In this document: in pieces, positions 7,581 to 23,502 of the stretch
Position numbering within the stretch: position 1 is the stretch's first letter
Layout of the letters: every line of letters begins with the position of its first letter
Source: Aneurinibacillus thermoaerophilus
Lineage (GTDB): Bacteria > Bacillota > Bacilli > Aneurinibacillales > Aneurinibacillaceae
Length of the DNA: 64,000 nucleotides
Direction of reading: 5' to 3'
Assembly: GCF_900099925.1 (NCBI RefSeq)
Contig: NZ_FNDE01000005.1
Location: 1-64,000, forward strand
Notes under the pieces: generated by a model
What the model saw: only the letters and a program-made list of their open reading frames with translations
Told to the model about the DNA's origin: nothing
The model's database searches: none
Program-made: the position numbers and the translations under genes

Positions 7581-7645
7581 AGTCGAGAAATGGCGTCCAC
7601 AGTTGGGCTTTCTACATTTTTCATATTGTTCAGGGAGGAATGATT

Positions 7646-8338
7646 ATGTCATTTACACAACAATTACGCGAGGCGGCCGATCCGATTTTTGAAGCGATTT
7701 TCCAGCACCCGTTCGTACAAGGACTAGCAAACGGCGATCTCAAAAAAGAAGCGCTCATTCATTACGTTAAACAAGACTTTGAATATTTGAACGCGTTTGC
7801 CAGAATTTATGGTATCGCCATTTCCAAATGCGAATCGCGCGAAGATATGCAGATGTTCTGCGACCAGCTTCCTGTCGTACTGCACGGAGAAGCGCATCCG
7901 CACAACAATCTCTGCCGCGTCGCTGGCGTGCGTTACGAAGATTTGCAAGGGTATCCACTTGCGCCAACGGCCAGCCACTACATCCGTCATATGCTCACGG
8001 TAGCGCATGAGGGGACGCTCGGCGAAATTTTGGCCGTGCTGCTTCCCTGCCCGTGGACATACTTAGAAATCGGGCAAAAACTGATGCGCGAAGTAAATCC
8101 AGACTCTTCCCATCCATTCTACGAATGGATTACGTTTTACGGCAAGTCAGTTGAAATGACCGTAACCGACAAATTTCGAGCACGACTTGATGAATGGGCA
8201 TTGAATGCATCCGATAAAGAAAAAGAAAAAATGAAACAGCATTTCCTGACCAGTTGTCAACTGGAATACGCGTTTTGGGAAATGGCATACACGGAAGAAG
8301 CATGGCCGGTGAAAATCGGGGAGGCAGCGCGCCGATGA
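7646..8338 (+). CDS. tenA: Thiaminase II / aminopyrimidine aminohydrolase TenA
   Basis: TenA hydrolyses aminopyrimidine breakdown products of thiamin to HMP for salvage. The 230-residue protein has the family landmarks: FEYLNAFARIYGIAI (the Tyr pair of the active site), the catalytic cysteine in LLPCPWTYLEIG, FYEWITFYGK and SCQLEYAFWEMAY near the end with the catalytic glutamate. The second ATG (7646) is chosen because GGGAGGA sits 7 bases away; the first ATG (7640) is too close. It overlaps ykoE by 4 bases and is under the TPP riboswitch. In B. subtilis the ykoFEDC operon has ykoF rather than tenA. Confidence 0.95.
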   Translation: MSFTQQLREAADPIFEAIFQHPFVQGLANGDLKKEALIHYVKQDFEYLNAFARIYGIAISKCESREDMQMFCDQLPVVLHGEAHPHNNLCRVAGVRYEDLQGYPLAPTASHYIRHMLTVAHEGTLGEILAVLLPCPWTYLEIGQKLMREVNPDSSHPFYEWITFYGKSVEMTVTDKFRARLDEWALNASDKEKEKMKQHFLTSCQLEYAFWEMAYTEEAWPVKIGEAARR

Positions 8339-8934
8339 ACTGGAAGATGCGTGAAATTGTGCTGGCCGTCGTTCTCTCGATCGCCTGTGGTGTATTATAT
8401 CTTGGCTGGTCCACCCTCTGGTTGCCCATCTCGGCGCTGGTAGGCCCGGTCGGTGCGGAATTTATGTTCGGCGTATGGGTCGTGGCCAGCCCTCTTGTCG
8501 CTTTTATCGTACGCAAACCGGGAGCCGCACTCATCGCCGAAGTGGCCGCAGCTGCTGTTGAAGTGTTCACCGGCAGCCACTTCGGCCTCTCTTCCCTGCT
8601 TATCGGCATCCTGCAGGGGCTTGGCGCCGAAATCGCGTTTTTCATGTTCCGTTATAAAAAATATTCGGTGCCTGTGTTAATGCTGTCCGGGGTATTGGCC
8701 GCGATCGGAAGCATGGTATATAGCTTACTGGCTAACGGGTTTGCCTATTATACAACCGGTGTGCTGCTCGCCACATTCGGCCTCCGCGTCATAAGCGGTG
8801 CCATTCTCGGAGGCCTGCTTGCAAAGATCATTGCCGAATCGCTCGCAAAAACCGGCATTCTTTCTTCCTATGAAATGATGAAACAACGCAGACACCACGG
8901 TGGTGACCCGTATGACTCCGCATCTGGCGTGTAA
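8335..8934 (+). CDS. ykoE: ECF transporter S component YkoE (thiamin precursor)
   Basis: Substrate-binding membrane component of an energy-coupling-factor transporter, believed to take up the HMP moiety. 199 residues and five to six membrane segments, with the YkoE-type stretch GWSTLWLPISALVGPVG and the later TGSHFGLSSLLIGILQGLGA. The start ATG overlaps the tenA stop (ATGA), so the genes are coupled. The three ECF parts YkoE-D-C follow in order with overlaps. Confidence 0.93.
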   Translation: MNWKMREIVLAVVLSIACGVLYLGWSTLWLPISALVGPVGAEFMFGVWVVASPLVAFIVRKPGAALIAEVAAAAVEVFTGSHFGLSSLLIGILQGLGAEIAFFMFRYKKYSVPVLMLSGVLAAIGSMVYSLLANGFAYYTTGVLLATFGLRVISGAILGGLLAKIIAESLAKTGILSSYEMMKQRRHHGGDPYDSASGV

Positions 8935-10528
8935 GGATGTCTCCGTCCGATTCTTTGATTCTCGCTTTTTTACGTTAAAGGATGTTACCCTCTCCATTGA
9001 GAAGGGAGAAAAAGTTCTCTTCCTCGGACCGAGCGGTTGCGGCAAGTCGACGCTTCTTGCCGCGCTGGCCGGCCTTATTCCTGGCTCTATCGAGGCGGAA
9101 ATAACAGGCGAAATCGTCCGTCCGGACAGAATTGGCATCATGTTTCAGGACCCTGACGCACAGTTTTGCATGCTAACGGTCGGAGACGAAATCGCATTTA
9201 GTTTGGAAAACCGCTGTGTGCCCCGGAACCAGATGGATTCACTCATCGAAAAGGCGATGGCACAAGCTGGGCTATCTTTGCCGAAAGATACTCCCATCGC
9301 CACGCTATCTGGCGGAATGAAACAGCGGCTCGCGCTCGCCTGCCTGCTCGCTTTGGACGCGGACACGTTATTTTTCGACGAACCAACCGCCCAGCTCGAT
9401 CCGCAAGGAAGACAGGAGATTTTCGAGTTATTGCGATCTTTTTCCGATAGCGACGTTACAATGGTATTTGTTGAACACGTGCTGGACGAATTAATTGACT
9501 GGATGGATCGCGTCGTTCTGTTCGATGCTGGCGGCCGCCTTATCGGCGAAGGTACGCCAGAGGACGTGCTGTCCTTATATGGGAAAGAAATGGAAGAGGC
9601 CGGAATTTGGAAGCCGCGCCTCTTTCCTCATACAATGGAAGAAATATGCGCCGACCCTTCCCACCCTTTACAAACAGAGTGGTCGTCCCAACTCCAGCGA
9701 AGCAAGGCGAAGCATACAACTTCCTCTCTGAGAACGAATGAACCGGTTTATACGGTGCATGATCTGTCGATTTCCTATGGAAAAAAACAAGTGCTCACTT
9801 CCATCAACTTCTCGCTGCATGCGGGGGAATGGGTGGCCATAGTCGGAAAAAATGGGGCCGGAAAGAGCACATTGCTCAAAGTGTTGGTTGGCTTGGAAAA
9901 ATGGAAGCAGGGCGACATTCTGTTTGCAGGCCGGTCGCTAAAAAAATGGCCAACTAAGGCATTGTTCGAACAAGTCGGCTTTGTTTTTCAAAATCCAGAG
10001 TTGCAGTTTGTAACCGATCGGGTATATGACGAAGTAGCATTCGGCGGGAAAGTAAGGGGCTGGAATGAAACAGCGCTGCATGAGAAAACGATACGGTTGC
10101 TTCAGGAGTTTGCGCTTGAACCGTTCAGCGAAAAACATCCATTTACATTAAGCCAGGGACAAAAGCGCCGGTTAAGCGTGGCTACTATGCTTTTGTTTGA
10201 CCAAAAAGTACTATTGCTGGACGAGCCTACGTTTGGTCAGGATGCAGGCACGTGTGCGCAGCTTCTTTCCCGCCTCCAACAACGCAAGGAACAGGGTACA
10301 TCGATTATCATGGTTACCCATGATATGGATCTGGTAGATCAGTATGCGGATCGGGTGCTGTTGCTTGACAATGGAACCATACAATTCGACGGTACACCGT
10401 ACGAGTTGTTTTCTTCTCAGCTTCCCCTTCCCGGCCTGATTCGTCCGCTGCCGTACGAATGGGAAAGGAGGATAAAAGATGACGCACGATTCGGGCTCGT
10501 TTCTTACGCGCGTGAATCCATCCGTTAA
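8912..10528 (+). CDS. ykoD: ECF transporter duplicated ATPase YkoD
   Basis: Energising subunit: two ABC ATPase domains fused in one chain of about 538 residues, as in B. subtilis YkoD. First domain: Walker A GPSGCGKST, signature LSGGMKQRL, Walker B FFDEPTAQLD. Second domain: Walker A GKNGAGKST, signature LSQGQKRRL, Walker B LLLDEPTFGQD. I prefer the ATG at 8912 because the family N-terminus begins near HLACKDVSV; a GTG at 8900 is possible. The gene overlaps both ykoE and ykoC, so stoichiometry is probably set by coupling. Confidence 0.93.
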   Translation: MTPHLACKDVSVRFFDSRFFTLKDVTLSIEKGEKVLFLGPSGCGKSTLLAALAGLIPGSIEAEITGEIVRPDRIGIMFQDPDAQFCMLTVGDEIAFSLENRCVPRNQMDSLIEKAMAQAGLSLPKDTPIATLSGGMKQRLALACLLALDADTLFFDEPTAQLDPQGRQEIFELLRSFSDSDVTMVFVEHVLDELIDWMDRVVLFDAGGRLIGEGTPEDVLSLYGKEMEEAGIWKPRLFPHTMEEICADPSHPLQTEWSSQLQRSKAKHTTSSLRTNEPVYTVHDLSISYGKKQVLTSINFSLHAGEWVAIVGKNGAGKSTLLKVLVGLEKWKQGDILFAGRSLKKWPTKALFEQVGFVFQNPELQFVTDRVYDEVAFGGKVRGWNETALHEKTIRLLQEFALEPFSEKHPFTLSQGQKRRLSVATMLLFDQKVLLLDEPTFGQDAGTCAQLLSRLQQRKEQGTSIIMVTHDMDLVDQYADRVLLLDNGTIQFDGTPYELFSSQLPLPGLIRPLPYEWERRIKDDARFGLVSYARESIR

Positions 10529-11252
10529 GCTAACCGCACATCTTCTAATTATGATGTTTCTAATGACCATCGGCGATCCAGGTACATCTGCCTTACTCTG
10601 GCTACTTTCGCTTATCATCGGTGTCGCGCTCGGAGGCTGGACATGGCAGTATATAAAACGACGCATCCTGCCATATCTCGGCTTCTTTGTTCTCGTATTC
10701 TGGATGCTGGCTGCTTTCGGCAAAGGCGAGGCAGTACTGTGGCAGTTCGCCTGGTTTCGGATCACGGAAGAGGGCGTCTATCATGGTTTGGTCATCGCGT
10801 TCCGAATGCTCGGTTTCGTAACATACGGTCTACTATTTACATCCACGACCGATACAACGCAACTTGTCATGAGCCTAATTCAACAGTACAAACTTTCTCC
10901 AAAATGGGGATACGGACTGATGGCAGGGATGCGGTTCATTCCGCTATTTGAAAGCGAGCTGAAACAAATGAAAGCCGCGCATAAAATCCGCGGTTTTCAT
11001 ACGCAGGGAAAGCTGAAGGCTTTTGCACGCTATACGCTACCTTTATTCGCGCAAGGCATCCGTAAAGCAGAACGGGTGGCTGTGGCAATGGAAGCAAGAG
11101 GATTCAACGGTTCCCGCAAGCGGACGTATTATCATACACCGATCGTGGCGAACCTGGACTATCTGTATTGTACTTTTCTCTTTTTGGCCGTATTGGTTAT
11201 TACATTTTCCTCTTATTTATTTGGATGGTTCACCTGGGTATGGGATTCATAA
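10479..11252 (+). CDS. ykoC: ECF transporter T component YkoC
   Basis: Transmembrane coupling subunit of the ECF complex, 257 residues. It has the EcfT topology with several N-terminal membrane helices, and the two coupling-helix motifs: GLMAGMRFIPLFESEL with AHKIRGF, and KAERVAVAMEARGFNG, whose Ala-Arg-Gly motifs dock to the ATPases. A clear AAAGGAGG precedes the ATG, which lies inside the end of ykoD. It is the last gene of the riboswitch-controlled operon, followed by a hairpin. Confidence 0.93.
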   Translation: MTHDSGSFLTRVNPSVKLTAHLLIMMFLMTIGDPGTSALLWLLSLIIGVALGGWTWQYIKRRILPYLGFFVLVFWMLAAFGKGEAVLWQFAWFRITEEGVYHGLVIAFRMLGFVTYGLLFTSTTDTTQLVMSLIQQYKLSPKWGYGLMAGMRFIPLFESELKQMKAAHKIRGFHTQGKLKAFARYTLPLFAQGIRKAERVAVAMEARGFNGSRKRTYYHTPIVANLDYLYCTFLFLAVLVITFSSYLFGWFTWVWDS

Positions 11253-11428: not shown

Positions 11429-12157
11429 CTACCCTATTAGAGAAAAATCAAACGTTAATAGTTTCTTAATCTCCCGTGACGAACGAAGCGCATACTTTTC
11501 CATCCACTTGGCGATAAATCCGGTCATATGAGCGGCAGCGAAGCTATGCCCCTGCAAATTAAATTTTTGCAGGGGTCCTTCCAGACGCTTGGGAAGTCCA
11601 AGAGCGGAAAATGACACCGGCTCATCTGCATGATAATAAAACTCATCGGCCCGGCAATCTTCACTTGCTTGCACCGCGAATACAGACGGATAATAACCGG
11701 GCCACAACAATCCCCGCCCTTTATCACAAGCGGAAACAATCACGATTCCCGCCCGCTCTGCTTTCTCGCACACATCCCGCAACTCCTTAACATCGCGGCG
11801 GACACCAAGACTCAAGTTAATGATATGCATTCGCGCGTCGATACACCATTCGATCGCGGCACATAGTACCTCAATGTGCGCGCTCAGTGTCTCGTGAAAA
11901 ATTTTGACCGCCCAAATCTCAGCATCCGGTACATGTTCGTACAACACACCAGCCACCGCCGTTCCATGTCCTAGCCGATCGTGATAAGCATCCGATATTC
12001 GGATCATCCCTTCGTCCGACACATGGAACGCAAGACCACCGGCGACCTTTCCGATATGGGAATGATGCGCGTTCACTCCGCTGTCAATCTGGGCAATACG
12101 TATGTTTTCGCCTCTTCCCCAAACCTGTTTAGCCATGTCGCCTTTCCAACGCCGCAT
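11429..12157 (-). CDS. qhpE: QhpE, subtilisin-like leader peptidase of QHNDH
   Basis: Serine protease of the S8 family that, in Paracoccus, removes the leader of the crosslinked gamma subunit inside the cell. The 242-residue protein has the catalytic triad Asp25 (IAQIDSGVNAHH), His64 (RLGHGTAVAG) and Ser205 (LQGHSFAAAH). It has no signal peptide or prodomain, fitting cytoplasmic work. The ATG at 12157 is chosen because GGGGGGA lies about 7 bases away; an earlier ATG at 12163 is too close. It overlaps qhpF by 29 bases and is the last gene of the operon. Confidence 0.88.
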   Translation of the reverse strand: MRRWKGDMAKQVWGRGENIRIAQIDSGVNAHHSHIGKVAGGLAFHVSDEGMIRISDAYHDRLGHGTAVAGVLYEHVPDAEIWAVKIFHETLSAHIEVLCAAIEWCIDARMHIINLSLGVRRDVKELRDVCEKAERAGIVIVSACDKGRGLLWPGYYPSVFAVQASEDCRADEFYYHADEPVSFSALGLPKRLEGPLQKFNLQGHSFAAAHMTGFIAKWMEKYALRSSREIKKLLTFDFSLIG

Positions 12158-13817
12158 TCTCATTCCCCCCTATAGACGAATGAACACGTTCAAGCAAACC
12201 CCCATCCTCCATGAACCAAATCCGATCCGCCCATCCAATATGTTGCATACGATGGGTAATCATCAACACCGTCTTGTGCCATAAATGCCGGCGAATAAAT
12301 GAAACAATGTCCTGTTCCATCTTCTCGTCAAGATGGCACATCGCCTCATCGAAAATAAAAATATCGGGGTCTCGCAAAAATGCCCGGGCCAGCGCCAGAC
12401 GCTGCTTCTGTCCCGTCGACAATGCCCTGCCGCGTTCTCCTAATTTGCTATTCAGTCCCTCCGGCATCTCCATGATTTCCTGCCATAATCCTACCGCCAC
12501 AAGCGCCTGCTTGATTTCTTGTTGTGAAAACGAATATGCGCCCATTTGCAAATAATCGACTACCGTTTCATGCCATACCGGCGTGTCATGTGTGACAAGA
12601 CATACGCGACGATTCCAGGAGTCGCGCGTAAAGGTTCGGATATCGATACCGTCGCAATAAATCGCGCCGGACACCGGAGTATACAGTCGCGCCAGCAAAT
12701 CAGCAAGCGTGCTTTTTCCAGCCCCGTTCGGCCCGACAATCGCTACCTTCTCTCCTTTTTTTACGGAACAAGTAATCTCTTGTAAAATATCGCGTTCCTC
12801 TTCATGGCGAAAACGCACCCGGCGAAACTCTAAAACGGAGCGAAATTCAGGCATGACTTGCGTCCCATCTTCTTGCACAGGCAAATTCAGAAGCTCCTGA
12901 ACCCGCACGATCGCGGCTTTTCCTTTTTGAAAACGAATGTACAATTGGGCAAACCCCTGAACAGAACTGAAAAATTTCGCCTGGTATGCGCTAAACGCCA
13001 GCAACGCGCCAAGAGTCGTCTCGCCCGCCAGCACTTTTCCCCCCAGTACACTGACCGTACCGATGGTCGAAAGCAAAATCACCAACTGTGGAATGCCCTG
13101 CGCGCAACCGGAAAAAAACGTAAGCTTCATATGTTGGCGGTTTATCGTTTGCAACTCGTTCCTGTATTTTTCGGCGCACCACATTTCCAAACTTCCGGCC
13201 TGGATAAAGCGCAGCGAAGACAGCGTATCGAATAAAAAGCTTTGATTGCCGGCGGACAGCTTGCGCAACTGTAAATTCTCCATATACAATAAATGGCGAA
13301 ATTTTTGTAAGCCGACCAGCAAAACGGGCAAGAGCAAAAAACAGCACAGCGCCATCGACCAGTCAAGATAAAGCAGGAAACCAACTTCCAAAACAACATT
13401 CAGGCTGACAATCACCGTCTGCAATATCCAATCGGTATACATACGCTGCGCTTCTCCCGCATCTTCATTCAACCGGGAAATGGCATCTCCCGCTCTTTTT
13501 TTGGAAAAAGCGCATAAAGTCGTACTCAACAGCCGCTCATACAATGCGCCTCTTATGTTTGCTGCCATATGCAAATGAACGCGCAGATGATAATACTTCG
13601 TCGCCAGGAAAAAGACATACATTAGCAAAATACACCCGATCCCCCACGCCAGCGCAAGCGAAAACGGATACGCGCGCTGGATAAACACCCGGTCAACGAT
13701 AAACTTTCCTATCATTGGCTGCAACGCCAATAAGACGGTGGCGATCATATTCAGCCATAACATCAACAACAGCGATTTCCAATATGGAACAATAAAAGCG
13801 GACAGCTTTTGCGGCAT
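12129..13817 (-). CDS. qhpF: QhpF, ABC exporter for the gamma subunit
   Basis: ABC exporter with the membrane domain (residues 1-310, six helices) and ATPase in one chain of 562 residues. The ATPase has Walker A GPNGAGKST, signature LSTGQKQRLALARAF and Walker B IFIFDEAMCHLDE, with the following H-loop MITHRMQHI. Paracoccus QhpF is needed to move the processed, crosslinked gamma subunit across the membrane; the same role is inferred here from the neighbours. In this Gram-positive the product would leave the cell or stay at the outer face of the membrane. GGAGGTGCAGG precedes the start; 10 bases separate it from the U32 gene. Confidence 0.85.
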   Translation of the reverse strand: MPQKLSAFIVPYWKSLLLMLWLNMIATVLLALQPMIGKFIVDRVFIQRAYPFSLALAWGIGCILLMYVFFLATKYYHLRVHLHMAANIRGALYERLLSTTLCAFSKKRAGDAISRLNEDAGEAQRMYTDWILQTVIVSLNVVLEVGFLLYLDWSMALCCFLLLPVLLVGLQKFRHLLYMENLQLRKLSAGNQSFLFDTLSSLRFIQAGSLEMWCAEKYRNELQTINRQHMKLTFFSGCAQGIPQLVILLSTIGTVSVLGGKVLAGETTLGALLAFSAYQAKFFSSVQGFAQLYIRFQKGKAAIVRVQELLNLPVQEDGTQVMPEFRSVLEFRRVRFRHEEERDILQEITCSVKKGEKVAIVGPNGAGKSTLADLLARLYTPVSGAIYCDGIDIRTFTRDSWNRRVCLVTHDTPVWHETVVDYLQMGAYSFSQQEIKQALVAVGLWQEIMEMPEGLNSKLGERGRALSTGQKQRLALARAFLRDPDIFIFDEAMCHLDEKMEQDIVSFIRRHLWHKTVLMITHRMQHIGWADRIWFMEDGGLLERVHSSIGGNENAALERRHG

Positions 13818-13827
13818 CCTGCACCTC

Positions 13828-14823
13828 CTATCTGTAGTAGCACATCAGCCCTGACTCGCAGAAAGAAGGCTGGTTTCTCACCTTTTTGGCAAAGCGCTGC
13901 ACGTCTTCCGCTTCTTCCTGCGCCCGCACGCGGTCTACTACCGCTTTTACCAGCTGTACGCTCGCCAGTTTCCGATAAGGAGAGCCTTCCCTTCCGACAA
14001 TTTTCAACGAATCCACTCCGGCCCGATACAAAGCGGGAAGCGCGCACAGACCGCACGGGCCGAGGGGAAGCCCGTCTTCCGCGAGCTGGCAGCCGCAATC
14101 ATTCACAAACCAGACAAACTCACGGTAATCCTGCACTTGTCTTGTCAGCATCTCCACCTCGGCGGGTTCCAGTATCCGATCGCCGTCCGTCGGTATGCCG
14201 ATATATTCCCACTGGCTCTGGGAGCAAAAGGCGCCGACCCGGTTATGGGTTGTATGGCAAAAACTTTCTTCATATACACACCCATCGTTTAAAATAAACA
14301 TTTCGAGCTCGATCTCACCGGCGGCCTGCTTCAGTCTTAAAACTTCATCTACCTGTACCGTACGCGGCAGTACAATCCTGCTTGCTCCAAGCTCTCTGTA
14401 CAGTTCGATACTTCCGACATTCAGCGGCGCTGCCAGGCTGCTCACATGAAGATTGGCCCGCGGCACATGATGCTTGATGGCCATCATGAAACCAATATCG
14501 CTTACAATGAAAGCATCCACCCCGATGCTCTCCGCGCAATGCGTAACCAAATCCAGCAACATCGGGTATTGTTCCTCTACGTAATATGGGGCGTTCAGCG
14601 TAATATAAACCGGAATCCCGTACCGATGCGAAACATCAACAATACGTCGCAATTCCTGAAAAGACAGGACGCCCGCAAACGGATTCCGCCGATTTATCCA
14701 CACGCCGGCTGAATATTTCTCCATCCATTCCAGCGGAGTAATTCCACAATAAAATTCTTCGGCACCGTTTTCCGCCAGCATTTCCACTTCCTGCGCCGAG
14801 CCTAATGGAGCTAGTATTTTCAT
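13828..14823 (-). CDS. U32-family protein, UbiU-like (putative hydroxylase)
   Basis: A 331-residue U32 'peptidase' family protein. The start MKILAPLGSA is chosen because GGAGGAAGGGG lies at the right distance. Family features are FYCGITPLEWMEKY near residue 24, IVLPRTVQVDEV, NDGCVYEESFCH and the U32 motif SLKIVGREGSPY. Cysteines C182 and C189 are spaced C-x6-C, as in the [4Fe-4S] site of UbiU, and C200, C243/C245, C257 and C260 follow. UbiU-UbiV and related pairs carry out oxygen-independent hydroxylation or tRNA hydroxylation. Here the gene lies between qhp genes in an operon that lacks the flavin hydroxylase QhpG. I infer that with its neighbour it may modify the gamma-subunit tryptophan. 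A different role, such as tRNA modification, is not excluded. Confidence 0.75.
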   Translation of the reverse strand: MKILAPLGSAQEVEMLAENGAEEFYCGITPLEWMEKYSAGVWINRRNPFAGVLSFQELRRIVDVSHRYGIPVYITLNAPYYVEEQYPMLLDLVTHCAESIGVDAFIVSDIGFMMAIKHHVPRANLHVSSLAAPLNVGSIELYRELGASRIVLPRTVQVDEVLRLKQAAGEIELEMFILNDGCVYEESFCHTTHNRVGAFCSQSQWEYIGIPTDGDRILEPAEVEMLTRQVQDYREFVWFVNDCGCQLAEDGLPLGPCGLCALPALYRAGVDSLKIVGREGSPYRKLASVQLVKAVVDRVRAQEEAEDVQRFAKKVRNQPSFCESGLMCYYR

Positions 14824-14854
14824 ATGTCTGTCCCCTTCCTCCATCTTTTGGATT

Positions 14855-15790
14855 TCACACGGGAATCCGCGGGCTGTATACCACTCTCCCACTCTCCGCT
14901 TTGGCCATGTTCGCTAATCCCCGCTTTACGATATCCCGGTTATGGGTATAAAAAGCGGTGTTGCCTTTTTGGAAAATGCGATGCCTCATATCCGGGATGT
15001 GCCTGTTTTTCAGCTCAAACGTATAGCGTTGACATTGCTGTCGGCAGTTCGGATCACCGCGAAACTTATCTTTTTTTTCCGCTTCCATAAATCCCACCAT
15101 ACAGGCGCTCCCGCTGGCCACGCAGCCGAACGGAAAATGAAAGGACAGCATGTACGGCGATGAATATTCAAGCAGCGCATGCTCCTGAATCAGTTCATCA
15201 AACTCAAGTCCTGCCACATTCCCCTCCTGCAAAAAACGTCCAAACCATTCCGACAACAACCCGCTCCCTGCAAACACACGGCGAGCGTCTGTTGGCGCGT
15301 TCTCATCCGCATAATAATCCGCTACCCGCGGATCCCGAATCGTCCTGTTTAACAATCGTCCTATCACAATACGCAAAACGGGAAAATGCTTGCGGATATG
15401 GTGATATACCCCCCAGTCATTAACTACAACTTCAAGCGGCCGCTCTTCCTTTACAGCCATTGTCTGCAAGTAAACAAGAATTTCAGGCAGCGCCTCAAAT
15501 TTCACGGTATGGACATACGGGATGACAAACGTAAACGCCAGACCGTGCTCCTGACTATATGCAAGTGCTTGCTTTACAGCAGTGAGAGAAGGAAGGCGAT
15601 ACTGGCAAAATTCAGATCCAAAGTACAAGCGATCAGGCTGCCGCCTAGCCCCGCACATTTGCTCCCATACCGAAAAAAACATCGTCTGCATATTTCTCTC
15701 TATTTCATTTAAATGCGTGCAAGCCGACCACGGTTGCCTCGAAAGCTCCAAATCCCGCAGCGATTGGATCGCGACCGCAAATTCTTTCAT
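14855..15790 (-). CDS. U32-family protein, UbiV-like (putative hydroxylase)
   Basis: Second U32-type protein, 311 residues, from the ATG at 15790 (AAGGAAGG about 8 bases upstream; the longer reading to 15847 has no such site). Landmarks are YFGSEFCQYR (C62), VVVNDWGVYHH and IVIGRLLNRTIRDPR, a tail-half cysteine set C223-x6-C230 in FGCVASGSACMVG, and C249-x3-C253 in DPNCRQQCQRY. The C-x3-C pair plus an N-terminal cysteine resembles UbiV. UbiV works as a heterodimer with UbiU, and this gene is followed after 31 bases by the UbiU-like one. Function in tryptophylquinone formation is an inference from position only. Confidence 0.72.
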   Translation of the reverse strand: MKEFAVAIQSLRDLELSRQPWSACTHLNEIERNMQTMFFSVWEQMCGARRQPDRLYFGSEFCQYRLPSLTAVKQALAYSQEHGLAFTFVIPYVHTVKFEALPEILVYLQTMAVKEERPLEVVVNDWGVYHHIRKHFPVLRIVIGRLLNRTIRDPRVADYYADENAPTDARRVFAGSGLLSEWFGRFLQEGNVAGLEFDELIQEHALLEYSSPYMLSFHFPFGCVASGSACMVGFMEAEKKDKFRGDPNCRQQCQRYTFELKNRHIPDMRHRIFQKGNTAFYTHNRDIVKRGLANMAKAESGRVVYSPRIPV

Positions 15791-15852: not shown

Positions 15853-16917
15853 TTAGTTACGAATCGCCTTTACTTTAATATCCATTCCGTCTGTTGGTGT
15901 TTTTAAAATTTTCTCTACATTCAAATCTGTATCCGCGATAATAAAGTCATTACCGCCACCGCCTAAATAAATCTTCTTTCCATCTGTGCTCATGTTAATG
16001 CCGTAAATCGTACCTGTAGGTGCTTTTACGTCTTTTATCACATGCCCGGTTTTTGCGTCTACTTTATACCAATGGTTCATAATGGAATATCCGTAACGTT
16101 CGTCCGGATCGATAATGGCAGAAAACATACCGACAGGCTCTTTGTCAAAGTCTTTCTTTTTGACTTCTCCGGTTTCCAAATTAGTCCAGCTCATTCCTTC
16201 TTTCACCGTTCCATCCGGATAGGTGGTCACCGTCGGGAAAGAATTAAACTTGCTGTTATCCCCCCGCGGAAAAAGCAGCAAAACATTCGTAGAACCATCC
16301 TTGCCGTTTTTGATTCCTTCCTTTTCTTTTAGCTGCCATTGCTTCGTATCCAACGTGTAAAGATCATATCCCCATACAAACAATGTGTGCGGATCATTCT
16401 TTTTAAATACCATGGCGTGAATGCCGTAAGGAGCTTCCAAATCGCGCGTAACCTTTTTGGTTTGCAAATCGATCTCGATAATTTTGCTTGGAAGCGCCTT
16501 GAAAATATTGGTTCGTTTTTCCCCTTGTGTCACAAACGCATACGCTTTAGAGCCATCCGGAGATATCGCCGAACCCCATACCCGGCGATCCAGCATGCCC
16601 TGATCCGTTCTTCCTGTCAGATTGATTTCATCCATCACTTTGTTTTGCAATGTGTCAATCACATACAACGTCGTTCGCCCATTTGCGAGCAACAACGCCT
16701 TTGTCCCATCTTCCGTAAAACTCAAATCCCGGGTCGGTCCTTTGACTTTAACACTGGCGATAACTTTCGGAATCGCAGGATCGATCACCGTCAGTTCGCC
16801 GTATCCTGTCACAAATACCCGTTCGGTGTACCCCTGAGCTGTTGTTGTATGTGCGCCGGAAAAGCTGAACATAAGCAATGTCAACCATATGCTAAGAACA
16901 GCGATTACTTTTTTCAT
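15853..16917 (-). CDS. qhpB: QHNDH beta subunit (beta-propeller)
   Basis: Beta subunit of quinohemoprotein amine dehydrogenase, a seven-bladed propeller that packs against alpha and gamma at the active site. 354 residues from the ATG at 16917, whose first base is shared with the qhpD TGA stop (coupled translation); a GTG at 16935 is possible. A signal peptide (VIAVLSIWLTLLMFSFSG) is followed by repeats of the YVTN type: GYGELTVIDPAIPKVI, TTLYVIDTLQNKVMDEI, KIIEIDLQTKKVT. The order qhpD-qhpB and the length match the family. The mature protein would sit outside the membrane with the haem subunit. Confidence 0.9.
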   Translation of the reverse strand: MKKVIAVLSIWLTLLMFSFSGAHTTTAQGYTERVFVTGYGELTVIDPAIPKVIASVKVKGPTRDLSFTEDGTKALLLANGRTTLYVIDTLQNKVMDEINLTGRTDQGMLDRRVWGSAISPDGSKAYAFVTQGEKRTNIFKALPSKIIEIDLQTKKVTRDLEAPYGIHAMVFKKNDPHTLFVWGYDLYTLDTKQWQLKEKEGIKNGKDGSTNVLLLFPRGDNSKFNSFPTVTTYPDGTVKEGMSWTNLETGEVKKKDFDKEPVGMFSAIIDPDERYGYSIMNHWYKVDAKTGHVIKDVKAPTGTIYGINMSTDGKKIYLGGGGNDFIIADTDLNVEKILKTPTDGMDIKVKAIRN

Positions 16918-18380
16918 CACGAATGACTCACGCACCCTTCTTTCCCGATGCCGGAAATCCGATCAAGAAACGCTGGATTTGCCTTGGCAATTTTGACATA
17001 TGCTTTCAATCCGATCACCATCCATTCGTGCATCCATTCACAGTAGTGTGCGTTCGGGCGACGAAAATCCCCCTGCCGCTCCATCGCTTCATAATAACAG
17101 CCTCCTGAGCAAATATGCTTCAGGGCACACATCGTACATGATTCTTTCCGCTCTACATGCAGCTGCTCCAACATCTCCCGTTGACGTTCGCGCTGAATGC
17201 CCGAATAAATATCGCCCATTTTAAAACGTTCATCCTCATTAAAACGATGGCACAAATACAGTCCCCCGTCGGGACTAACAGCAAAAAAGCCCAGCCCTGC
17301 CCCGCACCCGTACGCTTTATTTGTTCCGATATGGAGTTCTTTTAGCAAATTGGTTAAGTTGGAAAATCCGAGGTAACGTCCGTTGACCGCATGCTCCACA
17401 TATAAGTCGGCAATGTCTGCGAATTGCCGGAGCAATTCTCGCAACTCTTCACCGTTTAATAGCAGGTTTGCATCTGTTTCGGTAACAGGAGCGAATCCTA
17501 CTTCATAAAACCCTTTGGCCAGCAAATGTGAAAGCGACGTTTCCACCGCCTCAAATCCTCTGGATACGGTCACCCGCGCACCAACCGGAGCGGTGCGGTG
17601 GCCTTCCACCAGCCGCTCCACATTTTGGCTCACTCGCTCATACGATCCTTGTCCTCCAGCGAAGAGACGATGCTTGTCATGCGCTTCTTGCGTACCGTCC
17701 ATGCTGACCGACACCCCTATGGAATACCTATTTAAAAACGCAATGCGCTCAGGTGAAAGCAGCGTCCCGTTCGTGGTCAACGAATAACTAATTTTTTTGC
17801 CATAAAGTTCGGCTTGTTCCGTGCCGTACTCAACCAAATGCTGTAGTACATCCCAGTTTAGAAAAGGTTCGCCGCCAAACAATACAATGGTCACTTCCTG
17901 TTCATGAAAACTGTTTTCCATCAGAAAATGAACAGCCTGCTCGGCTACTTCTTTGGATAAATATTTTTTCGGGGCACCGTATTCCCCATCTCCTGCATAG
18001 CAATACGTACACCGCAAATTGCATTCATTGACCAGATGAACGACAAGCGTTTTTACAGGCATATTATCTGTTTGGCGGGGAGCAGAAGGGGTGCGGGAAA
18101 ACACCCCCTCACCCTCCGCGCCTTCATCGTGCACGATTTCCATTTTTGCCAGCTCTCTTATGGCTTCCTGCCATTTTTCGTCCCTTTGCATTTGAACGGC
18201 ATACACATCTTCTGCCAGAACCGTACAATCCCCTATGGGTTGCCCATGCTGTTTAGCGAAGGAAAGAAATGAAGAGGCCGCCTCATCCAATTCCATAATA
18301 TTCCCTGTTAAACCATGAAATAAGTAATGATGTCCATCAACGAAAAAGTCAATATAATTGCGAATCTGCATCGTTCCCAT
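16917..18380 (-). CDS. qhpD: QhpD, radical SAM thioether-crosslinking enzyme
   Basis: Radical SAM/SPASM enzyme of 487 residues that forms the Cys-to-Asp/Glu thioether bridges in the QHNDH gamma subunit. The cluster motif CNLRCTYC places C120, C124 and C127. The C-terminal auxiliary-cluster region has CTMCALKHICSGGCYY and a later Cys in AHYCEW. The N-terminal 100 residues include a PqqD-like region that would bind the substrate leader. GGGGGG precedes the start. It lies between alpha and beta genes in one run, as expected for this pathway. Confidence 0.93.
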   Translation of the reverse strand: MGTMQIRNYIDFFVDGHHYLFHGLTGNIMELDEAASSFLSFAKQHGQPIGDCTVLAEDVYAVQMQRDEKWQEAIRELAKMEIVHDEGAEGEGVFSRTPSAPRQTDNMPVKTLVVHLVNECNLRCTYCYAGDGEYGAPKKYLSKEVAEQAVHFLMENSFHEQEVTIVLFGGEPFLNWDVLQHLVEYGTEQAELYGKKISYSLTTNGTLLSPERIAFLNRYSIGVSVSMDGTQEAHDKHRLFAGGQGSYERVSQNVERLVEGHRTAPVGARVTVSRGFEAVETSLSHLLAKGFYEVGFAPVTETDANLLLNGEELRELLRQFADIADLYVEHAVNGRYLGFSNLTNLLKELHIGTNKAYGCGAGLGFFAVSPDGGLYLCHRFNEDERFKMGDIYSGIQRERQREMLEQLHVERKESCTMCALKHICSGGCYYEAMERQGDFRRPNAHYCEWMHEWMVIGLKAYVKIAKANPAFLDRISGIGKEGCVSHS

Positions 18381-18399: not shown

Positions 18400-20034
18400 T
18401 TAATTTACAATATTATTGTAGTCAGGCACCGTTACGATAAGGTGCGTTTTTCCGATGAGTGTTTTTCCACCGCTTTCATATTTTGCGATAACGGTTGCAC
18501 TTCCTACATTTTCTGCGGTAAACACCCGTTTCGCATTGGTTCCTTCCGTTCCCGGAGTAAACAAGCCGCTTTGATCTATCTTTCCGATATAAGCCAGATC
18601 CTCGCCCTTGTTTCCTTCCGGATACGGAGCAAGCGACCATTTAGCTTTGACCGGCATCAGTTGCATATCATCCGCCGTTCCTTTCTTTCTGTCCGGGCCA
18701 TTGCTATAAGCGTATGCCACGAATTGGGTGCTTACTTTATGCATCGGTCCAGCCCCTCCTACCCGCGAAACGGCGTATGAAGGCGTCACCTTGACATAAT
18801 CCACACGGTGATACACCGCAAGCTTTTTATGGCTGATTACCTGTCCAGATCCGATAGCAAACGAGCCTTCGGCAACGTTTTTGCCCACCGCTACCGTGAC
18901 TTTTATTTCTTCATTTGATACGGGCGTTATTTTTTGCACGGAAACACCCGCCGGAAGCCGCATATCTTTTGCCGTAAGTTGCTGCAAATTCATCCCGTAT
19001 AATGTAATGTCCTGCGTTTTTCCCCGCTCGATCGCCTGCGGTTCCATATGAATAATCTCCGGCTTTTCCGTCTGCACCTTATAATATATCTCTTCCCCCG
19101 TAATGCCCGGATCACTTGCATCAGACCAATCTCCCTTAATGACCGTTCCACCTTCCAGCACATTAAACGTACCGGTGAGCTTCTTTTTGTCCTGCTGATA
19201 CTGCGTCCTTAGCGCATAACCTGTATACAGGCGCGCCTGTCCGCGCATAGTAAGTGAACCCGGTTCATGAAGATATCGGATGGTTTTTGTTTCCACAAAA
19301 CCGTCTTTGTCTTTCACGAATTCACTATCCCCAATGTATGTCCCTTTTGTGCCTCTAAATCCGACGACTTTCCATTTTCCCTGCACATCATAACCTTTTC
19401 CTTTCCACTGCCTCCACTCTTCTGTTTCCAGCGGATATTGCTCAGCAAGATAGCGAATGGCCGCATCCGCCACCACCGGCCAGTCCATATGACGATGGTT
19501 CAAATAAATAGAAGGAAGCATGACGAGATGGAAATCTTTCAAATTTTTCCATTCTTCTTCGGTCCGTCGCTGGGCCATGAAACGCCCACCCGCATGACAG
19601 GTCATACATGCGTTTTGTACATTTTCATTCTTTACAGATTCCGTATAGGATGGTTTATTTGCCGTCCAATACTGCACAGCTTCGGCTTCCTCAGGAGCAA
19701 GGCCACGCTCCGCGCTTAAATCTTGAATCAATTGCCGCCGCTGCTCATCGGTCAACTTCAACCCGTGAATCCGTTCCATTCTGGCGATCGTTTGCGACCA
19801 TCCTTCCGGCGTTTTCCGCATGTACTCGATGCGTGCCAGCTTTCCGTTTTCATCTACCGCATGGCAGCCCATACACGACGCTTCGACTTGTTTACTGACA
19901 TGGACGGCGCCTTCAACCTTCATAACTGAAGCGCTTTCTTTTACGTCCGACTGATTTTGAAACCAAATAAAAAGAATTCCTAGGCAACCTACCACAAGTA
20001 ACAGTAAAATCACGCGCATGCTTGTTTTCTTCAT
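18400..20034 (-). CDS. qhpA: QHNDH alpha subunit (dihaem cytochrome c)
   Basis: Large subunit of quinohemoprotein amine dehydrogenase, 544 residues. Two haem c sites are visible, C54-C57-H58 (CMGCH) and C143-C146-H147 (CMTCH). They would carry electrons from the gamma-subunit CTQ to an outside acceptor as primary amines are oxidised to aldehydes. The rest is beta-rich, with the Ig-like family repeats (for example PEIIHMEPQAIERGK). The N-terminus is a single hydrophobic segment with LVVGC, which could be a lipobox. The enzyme is therefore probably anchored to the membrane, unlike the soluble periplasmic form of Gram-negatives. It follows qhpC after 16 bases. Confidence 0.93.
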   Translation of the reverse strand: MKKTSMRVILLLLVVGCLGILFIWFQNQSDVKESASVMKVEGAVHVSKQVEASCMGCHAVDENGKLARIEYMRKTPEGWSQTIARMERIHGLKLTDEQRRQLIQDLSAERGLAPEEAEAVQYWTANKPSYTESVKNENVQNACMTCHAGGRFMAQRRTEEEWKNLKDFHLVMLPSIYLNHRHMDWPVVADAAIRYLAEQYPLETEEWRQWKGKGYDVQGKWKVVGFRGTKGTYIGDSEFVKDKDGFVETKTIRYLHEPGSLTMRGQARLYTGYALRTQYQQDKKKLTGTFNVLEGGTVIKGDWSDASDPGITGEEIYYKVQTEKPEIIHMEPQAIERGKTQDITLYGMNLQQLTAKDMRLPAGVSVQKITPVSNEEIKVTVAVGKNVAEGSFAIGSGQVISHKKLAVYHRVDYVKVTPSYAVSRVGGAGPMHKVSTQFVAYAYSNGPDRKKGTADDMQLMPVKAKWSLAPYPEGNKGEDLAYIGKIDQSGLFTPGTEGTNAKRVFTAENVGSATVIAKYESGGKTLIGKTHLIVTVPDYNNIVN

Positions 20035-20050: not shown

Positions 20051-20371
20051 CTACGGCTTTACATACTGCAATTTTCGCCAATCGTTCGCCGCAACCGGGC
20101 AAACATCAGAGTATGTGCTATAATTTGTAAGACCATCAGGCACTTGCGCCGCCCACCAGCAATCGCCATAACATCCGTAAATATCGCGATAATGCGGCTG
20201 GCAAAGGCCATCAAGCACCATCCCCGAGAAATCCGTCTCCCATCCCGGGTCAAACAACGTGGAGCATCCCATCGGCAGCAAAGCCAGCCCTTCCACTTCC
20301 GGCTCTTTTTTGAGATCAATACGTTTTTCCAGTTGTTTTCCTTTCCAGTTCAACGGTTTGATATGTTTCAC
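20051..20371 (-). CDS. qhpC: QHNDH gamma subunit (CTQ precursor)
   Basis: Small catalytic subunit carrying cysteine tryptophylquinone. The start is GTG at 20371 (AAGGGGAG 7 bases upstream) rather than the longer reading; it gives 106 residues beginning MKHIKPLN. A leader of about 28-34 residues precedes the core. All crosslink partners known from Paracoccus keep their spacing: C36-E45, C57-D63, C71-D79, and C67-W73 as the CTQ pair within GCYGDCWW. Other family marks are FDPGWETDF, LCQPHYRDIYG and NDWRKLQ. One extra cysteine, C91, is present. The gene is first in this operon, ahead of the alpha gene. Confidence 0.95.
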   Translation of the reverse strand: MKHIKPLNWKGKQLEKRIDLKKEPEVEGLALLPMGCSTLFDPGWETDFSGMVLDGLCQPHYRDIYGCYGDCWWAAQVPDGLTNYSTYSDVCPVAANDWRKLQYVKP

Positions 20372-20582: not shown

Positions 20583-20639
20583 AGAAAGCGATGTCGCTAT
20601 ATGGATACATCAAGTCAAATGTATAAAGAGGTGAACGAA

Positions 20640-21335
20640 ATGGAGCCTATACTCATTGTAGAAGACGATAAGGATATTCAAAAACTGCTCTCTACTTGCT
20701 TTGAACAAGAAGCCTTGCCGTACTCCATTACTTCGTCAGGCCTCGAAGCGGTGGAAAAAGTTAAAAAAAGCTCCCCTTCCCTTATCCTTCTTGATATTAT
20801 GCTGCCGGATTCGGATGGTATTGAAATCTGCCAGCAACTCCGTATGCTCACTTCTTGCCCGATTATTTTTTTAAGCTGCAAGAATAAGGATACCGATAAA
20901 GTGTTGGGATTAAGCATCGGCGCGGACGATTATGTGGAAAAGCCTTTTAACATTAGCGTACTGATGGCCCGTGTGCGCGCCCATCTTAGGCGAAACCGCA
21001 TTTTGCAAAAGTTTCAAAAACAACAGACAAAACAGCATATTCAATTCGATAATATTTGCATTAATCTTCACGCAAGAGAAGTTTACCGCGACGGAAAAAG
21101 CATTCCTCTTACCGCTAAAGAATTCGATTTGCTCGCATTTCTGGCGCAACATCCGAATCGGGTCTTCTCTGCTGAGCAACTGCTTGATCATGTGTGGGGA
21201 ATGAATACGTTAAGCGAGAAACGAACCGTCGTCGTCCATATCTCAAGTCTCAGGAAAAATATTGAAGAAAACGCTCTTCAGCCAAGATATATTCTGACGG
21301 TCAGAGGAGTTGGATATAAATTTGCGGCTTTTTAA
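20640..21335 (+). CDS. OmpR/PhoB-family response regulator
   Basis: Response regulator of 231 residues; the ATG at 20640 is chosen for its AGAGGTGA site and because MEPILIVEDD is the usual receiver start. The receiver has acidic D9/D10, phospho-acceptor D52 (LLDIMLPDSDG) and a lysine in YVEKPFN. The winged-helix output domain has LTAKEFDLLAFLAQHPNR and the terminal RGVGYKF. It is divergent from the qhp operon and overlaps the kinase gene, so it probably controls amine oxidation genes. Gram-negative qhp operons are instead controlled by the AraC-type QhpR. Confidence 0.92.
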   Translation: MEPILIVEDDKDIQKLLSTCFEQEALPYSITSSGLEAVEKVKKSSPSLILLDIMLPDSDGIEICQQLRMLTSCPIIFLSCKNKDTDKVLGLSIGADDYVEKPFNISVLMARVRAHLRRNRILQKFQKQQTKQHIQFDNICINLHAREVYRDGKSIPLTAKEFDLLAFLAQHPNRVFSAEQLLDHVWGMNTLSEKRTVVVHISSLRKNIEENALQPRYILTVRGVGYKFAAF

Positions 21336-23502
21336 CATCATACGTAAATCTTTTTTTCTTAAAATCGTCTGTTTTACGACCTTGCTTTCCTTTATTCCGT
21401 ATGTCCTGCTCGGTTGTTATAGTTTGATCCAGGTTCATTCGCTGTCGAGCACAATGGCAAACGAACAAATTCAGAAAACGATTACCAATGTGCTCATGCA
21501 AAAATTGGCGTTACTAGAAAAGGAAACAGAGATCAATAATGCTGAATTTACCAAAATCGAACACAATTTAAAACTGATTCGCAAGCAAGCCGAATATTTA
21601 TTTGCGAAAAAGTCCGATTTTATAGCTTTGCGCAAGCCAACGATCACGTTACAACGGGATCCGAAAGGGTATTTCTTTTATCCTGATAGGCAAAACTCCC
21701 GTTTTTTTCTCAGCGCTTTGACCCCTATAACGAAAAATGTGCAAAGCGATTTGGAGATCGTATCTCAGTTGGAACCATTATTAAAAGAAACGGTGCAAAA
21801 CGAACCAGGATTAAAAGCCGCCTTTTTCGGCTTTGCTGAATTCGGATTTTTTATCTATCCACCGATAAACGCTGAATATGAAGTGTCCACGGGCCGACTT
21901 CCTCCTGATATTCGGATCCAACAGTATGAGTTTTATTATATTGCGGATGCCGAGCATAATCCGGAACGGGCGGTAAAATGGACCCGCCCGTATGAAGATG
22001 TTACGCATTGGAAATGGGTAGTAACAGCTGTCATTCCTGTATATTCGCCAAACGGAGTATTACAAGGAGTTATTGGGGTGGACTTTCCGCTTGACCGTAT
22101 GGTACGCAAATTTCTCGATTTCACTTTCACTGAACCGAATGCTTTCGCCTTTATCGTAGACGAGAATGGCCATATGATCGCCAGCAATCAGCCATCCGGG
22201 CGGAAGTTGTCCACCCCTCTTCCCGGTTTTGGAAGCTCTTCGGACGCCTTCAAACCATACATAGAAAAGATGAAACAAAAGAAAAAAGGCATCGTGAAGA
22301 TGGCTACAGCAGAGGGAAACGCGTATCTTTTGTTTGCCAACATTCCCAGCAGCAGATGGATGATGAGCTTTTATATCCCCGAAGCGGATATTGCGAATCC
22401 TATTATCGCCGAAACGAAAGTGCAAATATCTTCGCAAATGAAACAATTCGTCATTCCGTTTTTGTTCTTTTTGTTCGTCGGCGCGTTCCTTCTCATTTTC
22501 TTTTCTTATCGTTTTTCGCGAACGGTAACCGAGCCTGTGAAAAATTTGGCCATAGCGCTAAAACAAAGCGGGAAAGGTCATTATCATCAGGAAATACCGA
22601 TTACCTCACAGGATGAAATCGGCAATTTGACGAAAACGTTCAACAGGATGAGCCAAACGATTGAACAGCTCATCGCAGAACTGAAGAAGCGGGCAAATGA
22701 ACTTGAAGAAAAAGTAGGGGAACGAACAAAAGAGTTGCAGGAAGCGAATACAAAACTAACGGAAATGTATGAGAAGTTGAAGGGAGCAGAACAGGCGCGG
22801 GCGGAACTTATTGCACAGGTATCCCATGATTTAAAAACGCCGCTGACAACCATTAAGGGATATTTGCAAGCTTTGCATAAGTACGAATTTCCGCCGGAGA
22901 AAGAACGAGAATTTATTCGCACGATTCCCACCCGAATTAATCATACGATTCAATTGATTGACGATTTGTTTGAACTTTCTTCTTTGCACATGGATCAGCT
23001 GTCTTTTCAAAAAGAATGGATAAACCTCGATTTCTTAATCGACTATGCCCTGGAAATGGTCATCGCAGAGTTCGCGGAACCGAACATCGACGTTTATACT
23101 TCATACGAACCTGAATTGCCGCTCGTATTTGTTGATCCTGCGAAAATCAACCGCGCGCTCGTAAACATTTTGAGCAATGCGGTGAAATATTCGCGGGAAA
23201 AAGAAAAAATCCGCATCGAGATTGCGTGCTATCAAAAAGGAGAGGTTATTATAACGGAAATTAAAGACAATGGCATGGGGATATCAGAAGAAAACATGGA
23301 AAAAATTTTTACGATGTTTTATCGCGAACCGAAAATGAAAGAAGCGAAAATAACCGGGAGCGGGCTGGGAACCAGCATCGCGAAAGGTATCATCGAAAAG
23401 CATAACGGTACCATTTCGATTACGACAAATTCCGATGTTGGCACTACAATTATTATCTCTCTTCCAGTTATGCATATGGAGAAGGAAGATAGCAGGAGTT
23501 AA
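21310..23502 (+). CDS. Sensor histidine kinase with extracellular CACHE-like domain
   Basis: Kinase of about 730 residues, partner of the upstream regulator. Order: a membrane segment at about 13-35, an extracellular part of about 340 residues with a double-CACHE-like pattern (WKWVVTAVIPVYSPNG, GVIGVDFPLDRM, IVDENGHMIAS), a second membrane segment near 381-402, HAMP, a coiled coil, HisKA with H at about 506 (VSHDLKTPLTTIKGYL) and HATPase (NILSNAVKYS, DNGMG, GSGLGTSIAKGII). dCACHE domains often bind amines or amino acids, which would suit sensing of a dehydrogenase substrate. Start TTG at 21310 or 21322, inside the regulator's end. Confidence 0.9.
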   Translation: MDINLRLFNIIRKSFFLKIVCFTTLLSFIPYVLLGCYSLIQVHSLSSTMANEQIQKTITNVLMQKLALLEKETEINNAEFTKIEHNLKLIRKQAEYLFAKKSDFIALRKPTITLQRDPKGYFFYPDRQNSRFFLSALTPITKNVQSDLEIVSQLEPLLKETVQNEPGLKAAFFGFAEFGFFIYPPINAEYEVSTGRLPPDIRIQQYEFYYIADAEHNPERAVKWTRPYEDVTHWKWVVTAVIPVYSPNGVLQGVIGVDFPLDRMVRKFLDFTFTEPNAFAFIVDENGHMIASNQPSGRKLSTPLPGFGSSSDAFKPYIEKMKQKKKGIVKMATAEGNAYLLFANIPSSRWMMSFYIPEADIANPIIAETKVQISSQMKQFVIPFLFFLFVGAFLLIFFSYRFSRTVTEPVKNLAIALKQSGKGHYHQEIPITSQDEIGNLTKTFNRMSQTIEQLIAELKKRANELEEKVGERTKELQEANTKLTEMYEKLKGAEQARAELIAQVSHDLKTPLTTIKGYLQALHKYEFPPEKEREFIRTIPTRINHTIQLIDDLFELSSLHMDQLSFQKEWINLDFLIDYALEMVIAEFAEPNIDVYTSYEPELPLVFVDPAKINRALVNILSNAVKYSREKEKIRIEIACYQKGEVIITEIKDNGMGISEENMEKIFTMFYREPKMKEAKITGSGLGTSIAKGIIEKHNGTISITTNSDVGTTIIISLPVMHMEKEDSRS

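Follow-up and report, generated by a model that had tools for sequence, protein, structure and literature searches.

A pair of U32-type proteins in the quinohemoprotein amine dehydrogenase operon of Aneurinibacillus thermoaerophilus probably takes the place of the flavoprotein QhpG

The first 64,000 nucleotides of contig NZ_FNDE01000005.1 of Aneurinibacillus thermoaerophilus (assembly GCF_900099925.1, a genome of 3.66 Mb that is 99.99% complete), hereafter the window, carry on the minus strand an intact and compact operon for a quinohemoprotein amine dehydrogenase (QHNDH), the gamma subunit of which bears the cofactor cysteine tryptophylquinone (CTQ). The gene order is qhpC-A-D-B-u32V-u32U-F-E (window positions 20371 to 11429), with gaps of -35 to 62 bases between neighbours (Table 1). 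A preliminary description of this DNA, made from the sequence alone, had placed the three subunits, the radical S-adenosylmethionine (SAM) protein QhpD, the exporter QhpF and the protease QhpE on one strand with small gaps, which family matches and coordinates bear out: qhpA, B, C, D, E and F all lie together in the window. The NCBIfam cut-offs are passed by QH_gamma, QH_alpha and QhpE and not by QhpD and QhpB; the product at the place of qhpF is matched within NCBIfam by general ABC exporter models only, and was named by its domains and its place. The two further open frames described between qhpB and qhpF are also there. The first, u32V, starts with an ATG at 15790, with GGAAGGAAGG upstream, and ends at 14855, and the second, u32U, starts with an ATG at 14823, with GGAGGAAGGGG upstream, and ends at 13828; cysteines of both proteins are numbered from these ATGs. 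Gaps of 62, 31 and 10 bases separate qhpB from u32V, u32V from u32U and u32U from qhpF, and, as judged by eye, u32V, u32U and qhpF each have a purine-rich ribosome-binding site in front.

A gene for QhpG is absent from this operon, as had already been pointed out, and was not found in the remaining genome either. According to passages of PMC7876137, QhpG introduces two oxygen atoms from O2 into the tryptophan of the crosslinked QhpC, within a QhpC-QhpD-QhpG complex. Our QhpG profiles were seeded with candidate proteins of the annotated plasmid loci L007 (Paracoccus) and L009 (Pseudomonas) and iterated on the collected loci, which yielded 36 QhpG or QhpG-like frames, 21 of them canonical and 15 shorter (157-273 bits). 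With the canonical profile, A6, the A. thermoaerophilus genome gave two matches, one of 29.7 bits (31 positions) and one of 29.1 bits (110 positions); four controls with QhpG and two genomes carrying both systems reached 474-531 bits, with all other matches at 69 bits or below (31 genomes or records). The wider profile, A8, found no match in the source genome at E<=1e-15, and a QhpG encoded elsewhere in the genome was rejected on the strength of both searches. A shorter (about 300-350 residues) and divergent QhpG-like flavoprotein was seen in a number of qhp loci, mostly of Acidobacteriota (L042, L043, L045, L046, L048, L050, L057, L062, L063, L068, L069, L072, L075 and L087), and on a Novosphingobium plasmid (L008, 10946-11839), where a simple tblastn search with known QhpG had missed it.

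The occurrence of the U32 genes follows that of the qhp system. Two samples were drawn evenly from larger groups, 398 genomes of the Bacilli clade and 160 of the Thauera family. In the Bacilli, qhpC occurs in six genomes and U32V in those same six; in the window operon and in the five other qhp operons the two U32 genes are placed between qhpB and qhpF, and because of this repeated arrangement the position of the pair is not due to chance. In the Thauera family, qhpC was found in 21 genomes and U32V in 15, all of them within the 21. Over both samples, U32V was thus found in 21 of 27 qhpC genomes and in none of the 531 qhpC-negative ones (Fisher p 2e-13 for the Bacilli and 1e-16 for the Thauera family, ancestry ignored). 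U32 genes in genomes without qhpC, a pattern that the preliminary description had named as speaking against its proposal, were therefore not seen as far as U32V is concerned, U32U not having been searched in this way. As regards location, the Thauera family sample has 18 U32V copies, 13 of them in a stretch together with several qhp genes; four more are on the qhpC contig at some 13-31 kb and one (G457) is on a different contig. In this family qhpC occurs twice in four genomes, G418 (loci L126 and L127), G520, G523 and G455, and so does U32V in all but the last of them. In Proteobacteria the pair often follows qhpE or lies upstream of qhpA. Two Acidobacteriota loci, L038 and L040, show the order qhpD-qhpC-u32V-u32U-qhpF-qhpE, and neither qhpA nor qhpB was matched in their vicinity. 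A further genome, G592, has the order qhpD-u32V-u32U-qhpF-qhpE, some 66 kb away from the qhpA-C-B cluster provided that contig C100 and the contig of L077 are one and the same. The pair accompanies the maturation genes, even where qhpA lies elsewhere. An oddity confined to Bacilli was rejected, since qhp clusters with the pair were also seen in Acidobacteriota, Nitrospinota and Pseudomonadota; a plasmid search with the Thauera U32V gave no match. The two Acidobacteriota genomes that hold L038 and L040 contain two qhpC clusters each (L038 and L061 in G409, L040 and L065 in G411).

The pair is a near-exclusive alternative to QhpG and very likely replaces it, which comparative genomics supports well. 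The 21 qhpC genomes of the Thauera family comprise 11 with the pair only, six with QhpG only, four with both (G418, G464, G520 and G523) and none with neither, the QhpG-only genomes (395-500 bits) being exactly the six without U32V. QhpG was called here at 386 bits or more, or in G523 from two parts of one gene at separate contig ends (317 and 163 bits), and matches of 131-137 bits in G515, G446 and G480 were taken for another flavoprotein. Over both clade samples the 27 qhpC genomes divide into 17 with the pair only, six with QhpG only, four with both and none with neither. Moreover, a contig scan detected 514 QhpC relatives, of which the 80 loci most similar to the query, from several phyla, were kept; the scan is for that reason not an unbiased sample. 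At the level of the locus it gave 22 with the pair only (any U32V or U32U), 17 with canonical QhpG only, 14 with the short QhpG-like protein only, 25 with neither and two with both: L098 and L067, in the latter of which the pair is not shown complete, U32V being seen as a fragment at the contig edge and U32U not at all. Whole-genome searches for the 25 loci with neither found U32V in four genomes (G409 and G411, already counted, G592 and G596) and QhpG or QhpG-like proteins of at least 280 bits in 18, the best matches of the other genomes staying at 177 bits or below; at genome level, at most 78 genomes therefore comprise 23 with the pair only, 48 with QhpG or QhpG-like proteins only, three with both and four with neither found. 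The 50 loci that hold all six core genes show 18 pair only, 15 canonical, eight short, two both and seven neither. In addition, profile A8 detected QhpG in two (G415 and G418) of 38 pair-bearing genomes, matches of 106-112 bits in two further ones being taken for other flavoproteins. Fisher p values for the pair against QhpG, again ignoring ancestry, are 1e-12 (78 genomes), 6e-6 (50 loci) and 0.0039 (Thauera family). The tabulation of qhpG against the two U32 genes, proposed at the outset, has thus revealed near-exclusive alternatives in the clade samples and in the 80 scanned loci.

Common ancestry was taken into account on a QhpD tree of 72 rows, with states at genome level; the pairing excluded three rows for which neither system was found. 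On this tree at least six changes on starred branches are required to explain the pair-only state. In 4-5 of its 7 phylogenetically independent pairs QhpG changed in the opposite direction, and in none in the same direction; in a quick tree of 95 rows the opposite direction was seen in 4-6 of 10 pairs and the same direction, again, in none. On the QhpD tree of 72 rows, the pair-bearing L035 and L044 have as near-sisters the QhpG-bearing L032 and L059, respectively. Three loci, L062 (a metagenome-assembled genome titled Bordetella parapertussis), L063 (Nevskia soli) and L050 (Rhodospirillaceae), branch among Acidobacteriota in the QhpD tree, which reflects either mislabelled bins or gene transfer.

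This complementarity bears on the idea that the pair performs some other step of QhpC maturation (an aid to the crosslinking by QhpD, the Cys-Trp thioether or chaperoning of the kind that QhpG provides), the tryptophan being hydroxylated by an unrelated oxygenase or by autocatalysis. Passages of PMC7876137 lend it some weight, given that QhpD crosslinking in vitro is aided by QhpG itself and that the first hydroxylation in other tryptophylquinone enzymes is thought to be autocatalytic. We nevertheless consider it quite unlikely, since in several phyla the pair replaces a protein shown to hydroxylate the same tryptophan, the U32 enzymes with a shown modification role (UbiUV, RlhA and TrhP) are hydroxylases in the accounts taken from parts of PMC10470549 and PMC11574389, and a Pfam scan of the window operon gave no other candidate oxygenase. 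It is highly probable, in our opinion, that the products of u32V and u32U together form a heteromeric iron-sulfur hydroxylase of U32 type, dedicated to the building of CTQ, in which it replaces the flavoprotein QhpG.

What kind of proteins these are was addressed for each member of the pair. U32U belongs to the U32 family by its match to Pfam PF01136 (124 bits, cut-off 22.4), and profile comparison relates it to UbiU (99.85%) and TrhP (99.88%). The solved U32 structure 5d88 ranks first against its AlphaFold model (predicted local distance difference test, pLDDT, of 86) by both Foldseek (E 7e-8) and, among the chains compared, VIA-align (Z 17.3, the next 16.7), and is also the single match, at E 0.46, of a PDB sequence search with the U32U profile. 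Judged by its sequence, U32U constitutes a separate family distinct from UbiU, because 43 qhp-linked U32U form a single clade with 100/100 support, four UbiU form another (100/99), and the UbiU model NF047963 reaches 90.8 bits on U32U against a cut-off of 440. The reference rows of this tree were four UbiU, four TrhP, two TrhP1, four RlhA and two other U32 proteins, their labels outside E. coli being assigned by similarity. The C-x6-C motif with further cysteines noticed at first reading holds (C182 and C189) and can be extended to eight cysteines, C26, C182, C189, C200, C257, C260, C322 and C328, which are invariant in 41 of 41 rows; this count left out seven loci, the edge fragment L067 and the duplicates L010, L011, L016, L017, L126 and L128. 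The patterns given in part of PMC6747719 are CX6CX16CX38C for UbiU and CXnCX12CX3C for UbiV. The window U32U departs from the former, with CX6CX10C plus five more invariant cysteines, and its eight cysteines could hold two clusters. That ordinary TrhP or UbiUV genes had come to lie at the qhp operon by accident was rejected, in view of the distinct U32U clade and of a separate TrhP-like pair on contig C51. The latter, a second adjacent U32 gene pair that is TrhP-like by similarity, occupies C51:61564-63284 (L012) of the same genome (G000).

U32V is a more divergent protein. In the window it has no Pfam and no NCBIfam match, and of 24 members compared with PF01136 just three match at E<=1, the best at E 0.044; a PDB sequence search with its profile gave four matches with E values of 0.3 or higher, all to proteins outside U32. 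Its assignment to U32, taken for granted in the preliminary description, therefore does not come from these databases; it comes from the predicted fold and from profile comparison, by which U32V is probably a U32-fold protein. In this regard, VIA-align places 5d88 first among the chains compared for its AlphaFold model (pLDDT 85), with Z 12.8, a root-mean-square deviation of 4.0 and 200 aligned residues, and hhalign relates it to U32U at 81-92% and to another Acidobacteriota U32 pair at 90%, with QhpG as a control at 0.1%. Exactly four cysteines of U32V are invariant in 41 of 41 rows, C62-Xn-C230-X18-C249-X3-C253 in the spacing of the window, the first lying far upstream as is reported for UbiV. 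The pattern cited above for UbiV has X12 in place of X18, and hhalign aligns the first cysteine with the upstream cysteine of UbiV. Of the two motifs originally proposed for this protein, C-x3-C belongs to the invariant set (C249 and C253) and C-x6-C is not conserved. The labels 'UbiU-like' and 'UbiV-like' were thus right as to the kind of protein, and the two are neither UbiU nor UbiV. The family name, the PF01136 match of U32U and the study of other U32 proteins as collagenase-like proteases, as seen in parts of the literature, would suit a pair of U32 peptidases that process QhpC or other subunits; we find this very improbable against the iron-sulfur type of the invariant cysteine sets, the complementarity of the pair with a hydroxylase and the presence in the same operon of the leader protease QhpE, which stands beside pair-type and QhpG-type loci alike.

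The presumed target of the U32 hydroxylase was followed in QhpC, the residues of which were mapped with alignment A1 and the numbering in PMC8172795 and PMC7876137. The CTQ residues Cys66 and Trp72 (start residue not counted; the tryptophan is Trp73 with the start residue and Trp43 in the Pseudomonas subunit) and the crosslink Cys, Asp and Glu are invariant in 86 of 86 QhpC frames, pair-type and QhpG-type, from which it follows that the same product is presumably made and that oxygenation is presumably still needed. No column of the QhpC alignment separates pair-only from QhpG-only substrates at the thresholds set. The original proposal that the pair may do the tryptophan oxygenation finds support in these comparisons: the occurrence of the pair depends on that of qhpC and is nearly exclusive with that of QhpG, and the target residues in QhpC are conserved. 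In the scheme that we propose, QhpD would put the thioether crosslinks into QhpC in the cytoplasm, the U32 pair would then add two oxygen atoms to the indole ring of the CTQ tryptophan, QhpE would cut off the leader, QhpF would export the subunit and a final oxidation would give CTQ. We infer this order of steps, as well as a tryptophan di-hydroxylation as the reaction and a complex of the two proteins with [4Fe-4S] clusters. By analogy the pair probably needs no O2, and the oxygen would come instead from an organic donor such as prephenate, as reported for UbiUV. On balance it seems likely to us that a protein-dedicated U32 hydroxylase makes CTQ without O2, with both quinone oxygens derived from such a donor, and that this O2-free pair is the counterpart of QhpG, some bacteria, e.g., Thauera sp. 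Sel9, keeping both routes. E. coli keeps UbiUV beside UbiIHF, and the co-occurrence of QhpG and the pair suggests use under different O2 conditions.

Several observations weigh against this interpretation. For many of the hosts, Bacillus and Aneurinibacillus among them, aerobic culture is the usual practice, so that the need for an enzyme working without O2 is not evident in them. This habit, and the eight invariant cysteines of U32U versus four reported for UbiU, with which the chemistry could differ, would fit a pair that oxygenates the QhpC tryptophan with O2, as an iron-sulfur oxygenase; it would then be a new enzyme and not an O2-free route. Such a case looks unlikely beside the results for UbiUV reported in parts of PMC10470549, where O2 was excluded by labelling as the source for the ring hydroxylation, prephenate was implicated and the enzyme worked without O2 even in aerated cells, beside the nucleotide hydroxylations by RlhA and TrhP, for which parts of PMC11574389 also implicate prephenate as oxygen source, and beside the organisms with both systems. 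As to the replacement of QhpG, exclusion is not strict, since six of 42 U32V-bearing genomes also carry QhpG, and neither system was found at L028 and L074, on contigs of 7.0 and 3.4 kb, at L064, in a genome with a 177-bit QhpG-like match, or at L088. The ancestry-aware test is borderline, with a median p of 0.0625 and a range of 0.0625-0.125 for 72 rows and 0.031-0.125 for 95 rows. The genome searches for U32V scored the best five (Bacilli) or 14 (Thauera family) candidates per genome, so a diverged copy could be missed. Finally, in the case of U32V, the lead of 5d88 in VIA-align amounts to 1 Z over the next TIM barrel (11.8), Foldseek puts it third by E-value (1.0e-3, probability 1.00) after two chitinase-like TIM barrels, and hhalign relates U32V weakly to UbiV (9% or 75%, by direction), TrhP (54%), RlhA (13%), UbiU (2%) and TrhP1 (0.4%).

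Compared with known systems, the pair shares with QhpG of Pseudomonas and Paracoccus its place in the pathway, by genomic complementarity, and the conserved QhpC target, whereas QhpG is an unrelated flavin adenine dinucleotide monooxygenase using O2 and the pair has cysteine sets of iron-sulfur type. With UbiU-UbiV it has in common two adjacent U32-type genes, cysteine sets like the reported [4Fe-4S] ligands and a presumed ring hydroxylation. It differs in that U32U, with eight invariant cysteines against four, forms a separate clade, U32V can barely be aligned with UbiV, a tryptophan within a protein is predicted as substrate, and the Pfam search of the eight qhp operon proteins gave no match to the SCP2 (UbiT-like) family. 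TrhP (TrhP1/TrhP2) and RlhA are likewise U32 hydroxylases with prephenate implicated (PMC11574389, in part), but their substrates are RNAs and they stand apart from the qhp U32U clade in the tree. MauG, LodB and GoxB would be convergent in oxygenating a tryptophan-derived cofactor precursor; they are dihaem or flavin enzymes that act on mono-hydroxy-tryptophan, according to part of PMC7876137.

The pathway and the superfamily are known, and the family and probably the class of substrate are new. In open-licence literature without preprints we found no published description of a U32 route to CTQ and no work naming QHNDH or cysteine tryptophylquinone together with U32; the term does not occur in the main text of PMC7876137, and the available portions of PMC11002830 and PMC8172795 mention qhp genes and not U32. 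Some bacteria appear to have swapped the O2-using finisher of CTQ for an iron-sulfur pair of the U32 family, which is known to act without O2. If so, the pair would be, within the literature searched, the first known U32 hydroxylase with a protein substrate, and a quinone cofactor with an O2-using known qhp route could be made without O2, which could explain the maturation of the amine dehydrogenase in low-oxygen bacteria. The poorly understood U32 enzymes would also gain a substrate that is genetically encoded and ribosomally made, the small protein QhpC. Its product could be detected by mass spectrometry (+32 Da), which should make assays simpler than those with a hydrophobic quinone or an RNA.

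Table 1. Genes of the qhp operon in the window, in order of transcription
Gene	Product	Position	Strand	Basis
qhpC	gamma subunit (CTQ-bearing precursor with leader)	20051..20371	-	GTG start at 20371; NF037958 E 5e-39, above cut-off
qhpA	alpha (dihaem) subunit	18400..20034	-	TIGR03908 426.6 bits, cut-off 274; four QHNDH alpha Pfam domains
qhpD	radical SAM thioether crosslinking maturase	16917..18380	-	TIGR03906 446 bits, slightly below cut-off of 453
qhpB	beta subunit	15853..16935	-	TIGR03907 105 bits, cut-off 223, divergent; position conserved
u32V	divergent U32-fold protein (probable); proposed iron-sulfur subunit of tryptophan hydroxylase	14855..15790	-	invariant C62, C230, C249, C253
u32U	U32 protein; proposed catalytic iron-sulfur subunit	13828..14823	-	PF01136 E 7e-36; own clade 100/100; eight invariant cysteines
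qhpF	ABC exporter of processed gamma subunit	12129..13817	-	ABC_membrane and ABC_tran; conserved position
qhpE	subtilisin-like leader protease	11429..12163	-	NF049966 173.7 bits, cut-off 165

Divergently from qhpC, at 20601-23502 on the plus strand of the window, lie genes for an OmpR-type response regulator and a dCache/HAMP histidine kinase, possibly the regulator of the operon; a similar response regulator adjoins qhpC at L013, and an AraC-type regulator takes this place in the Paracoccus plasmid locus L007. On the other side of the operon, at 7640-11252 (plus strand), a TenA-family gene precedes genes for a permease of ABC_cobalt type, a double ABC ATPase and a permease of CbiQ type, a group that we take to resemble a set for the uptake of thiamine precursors.

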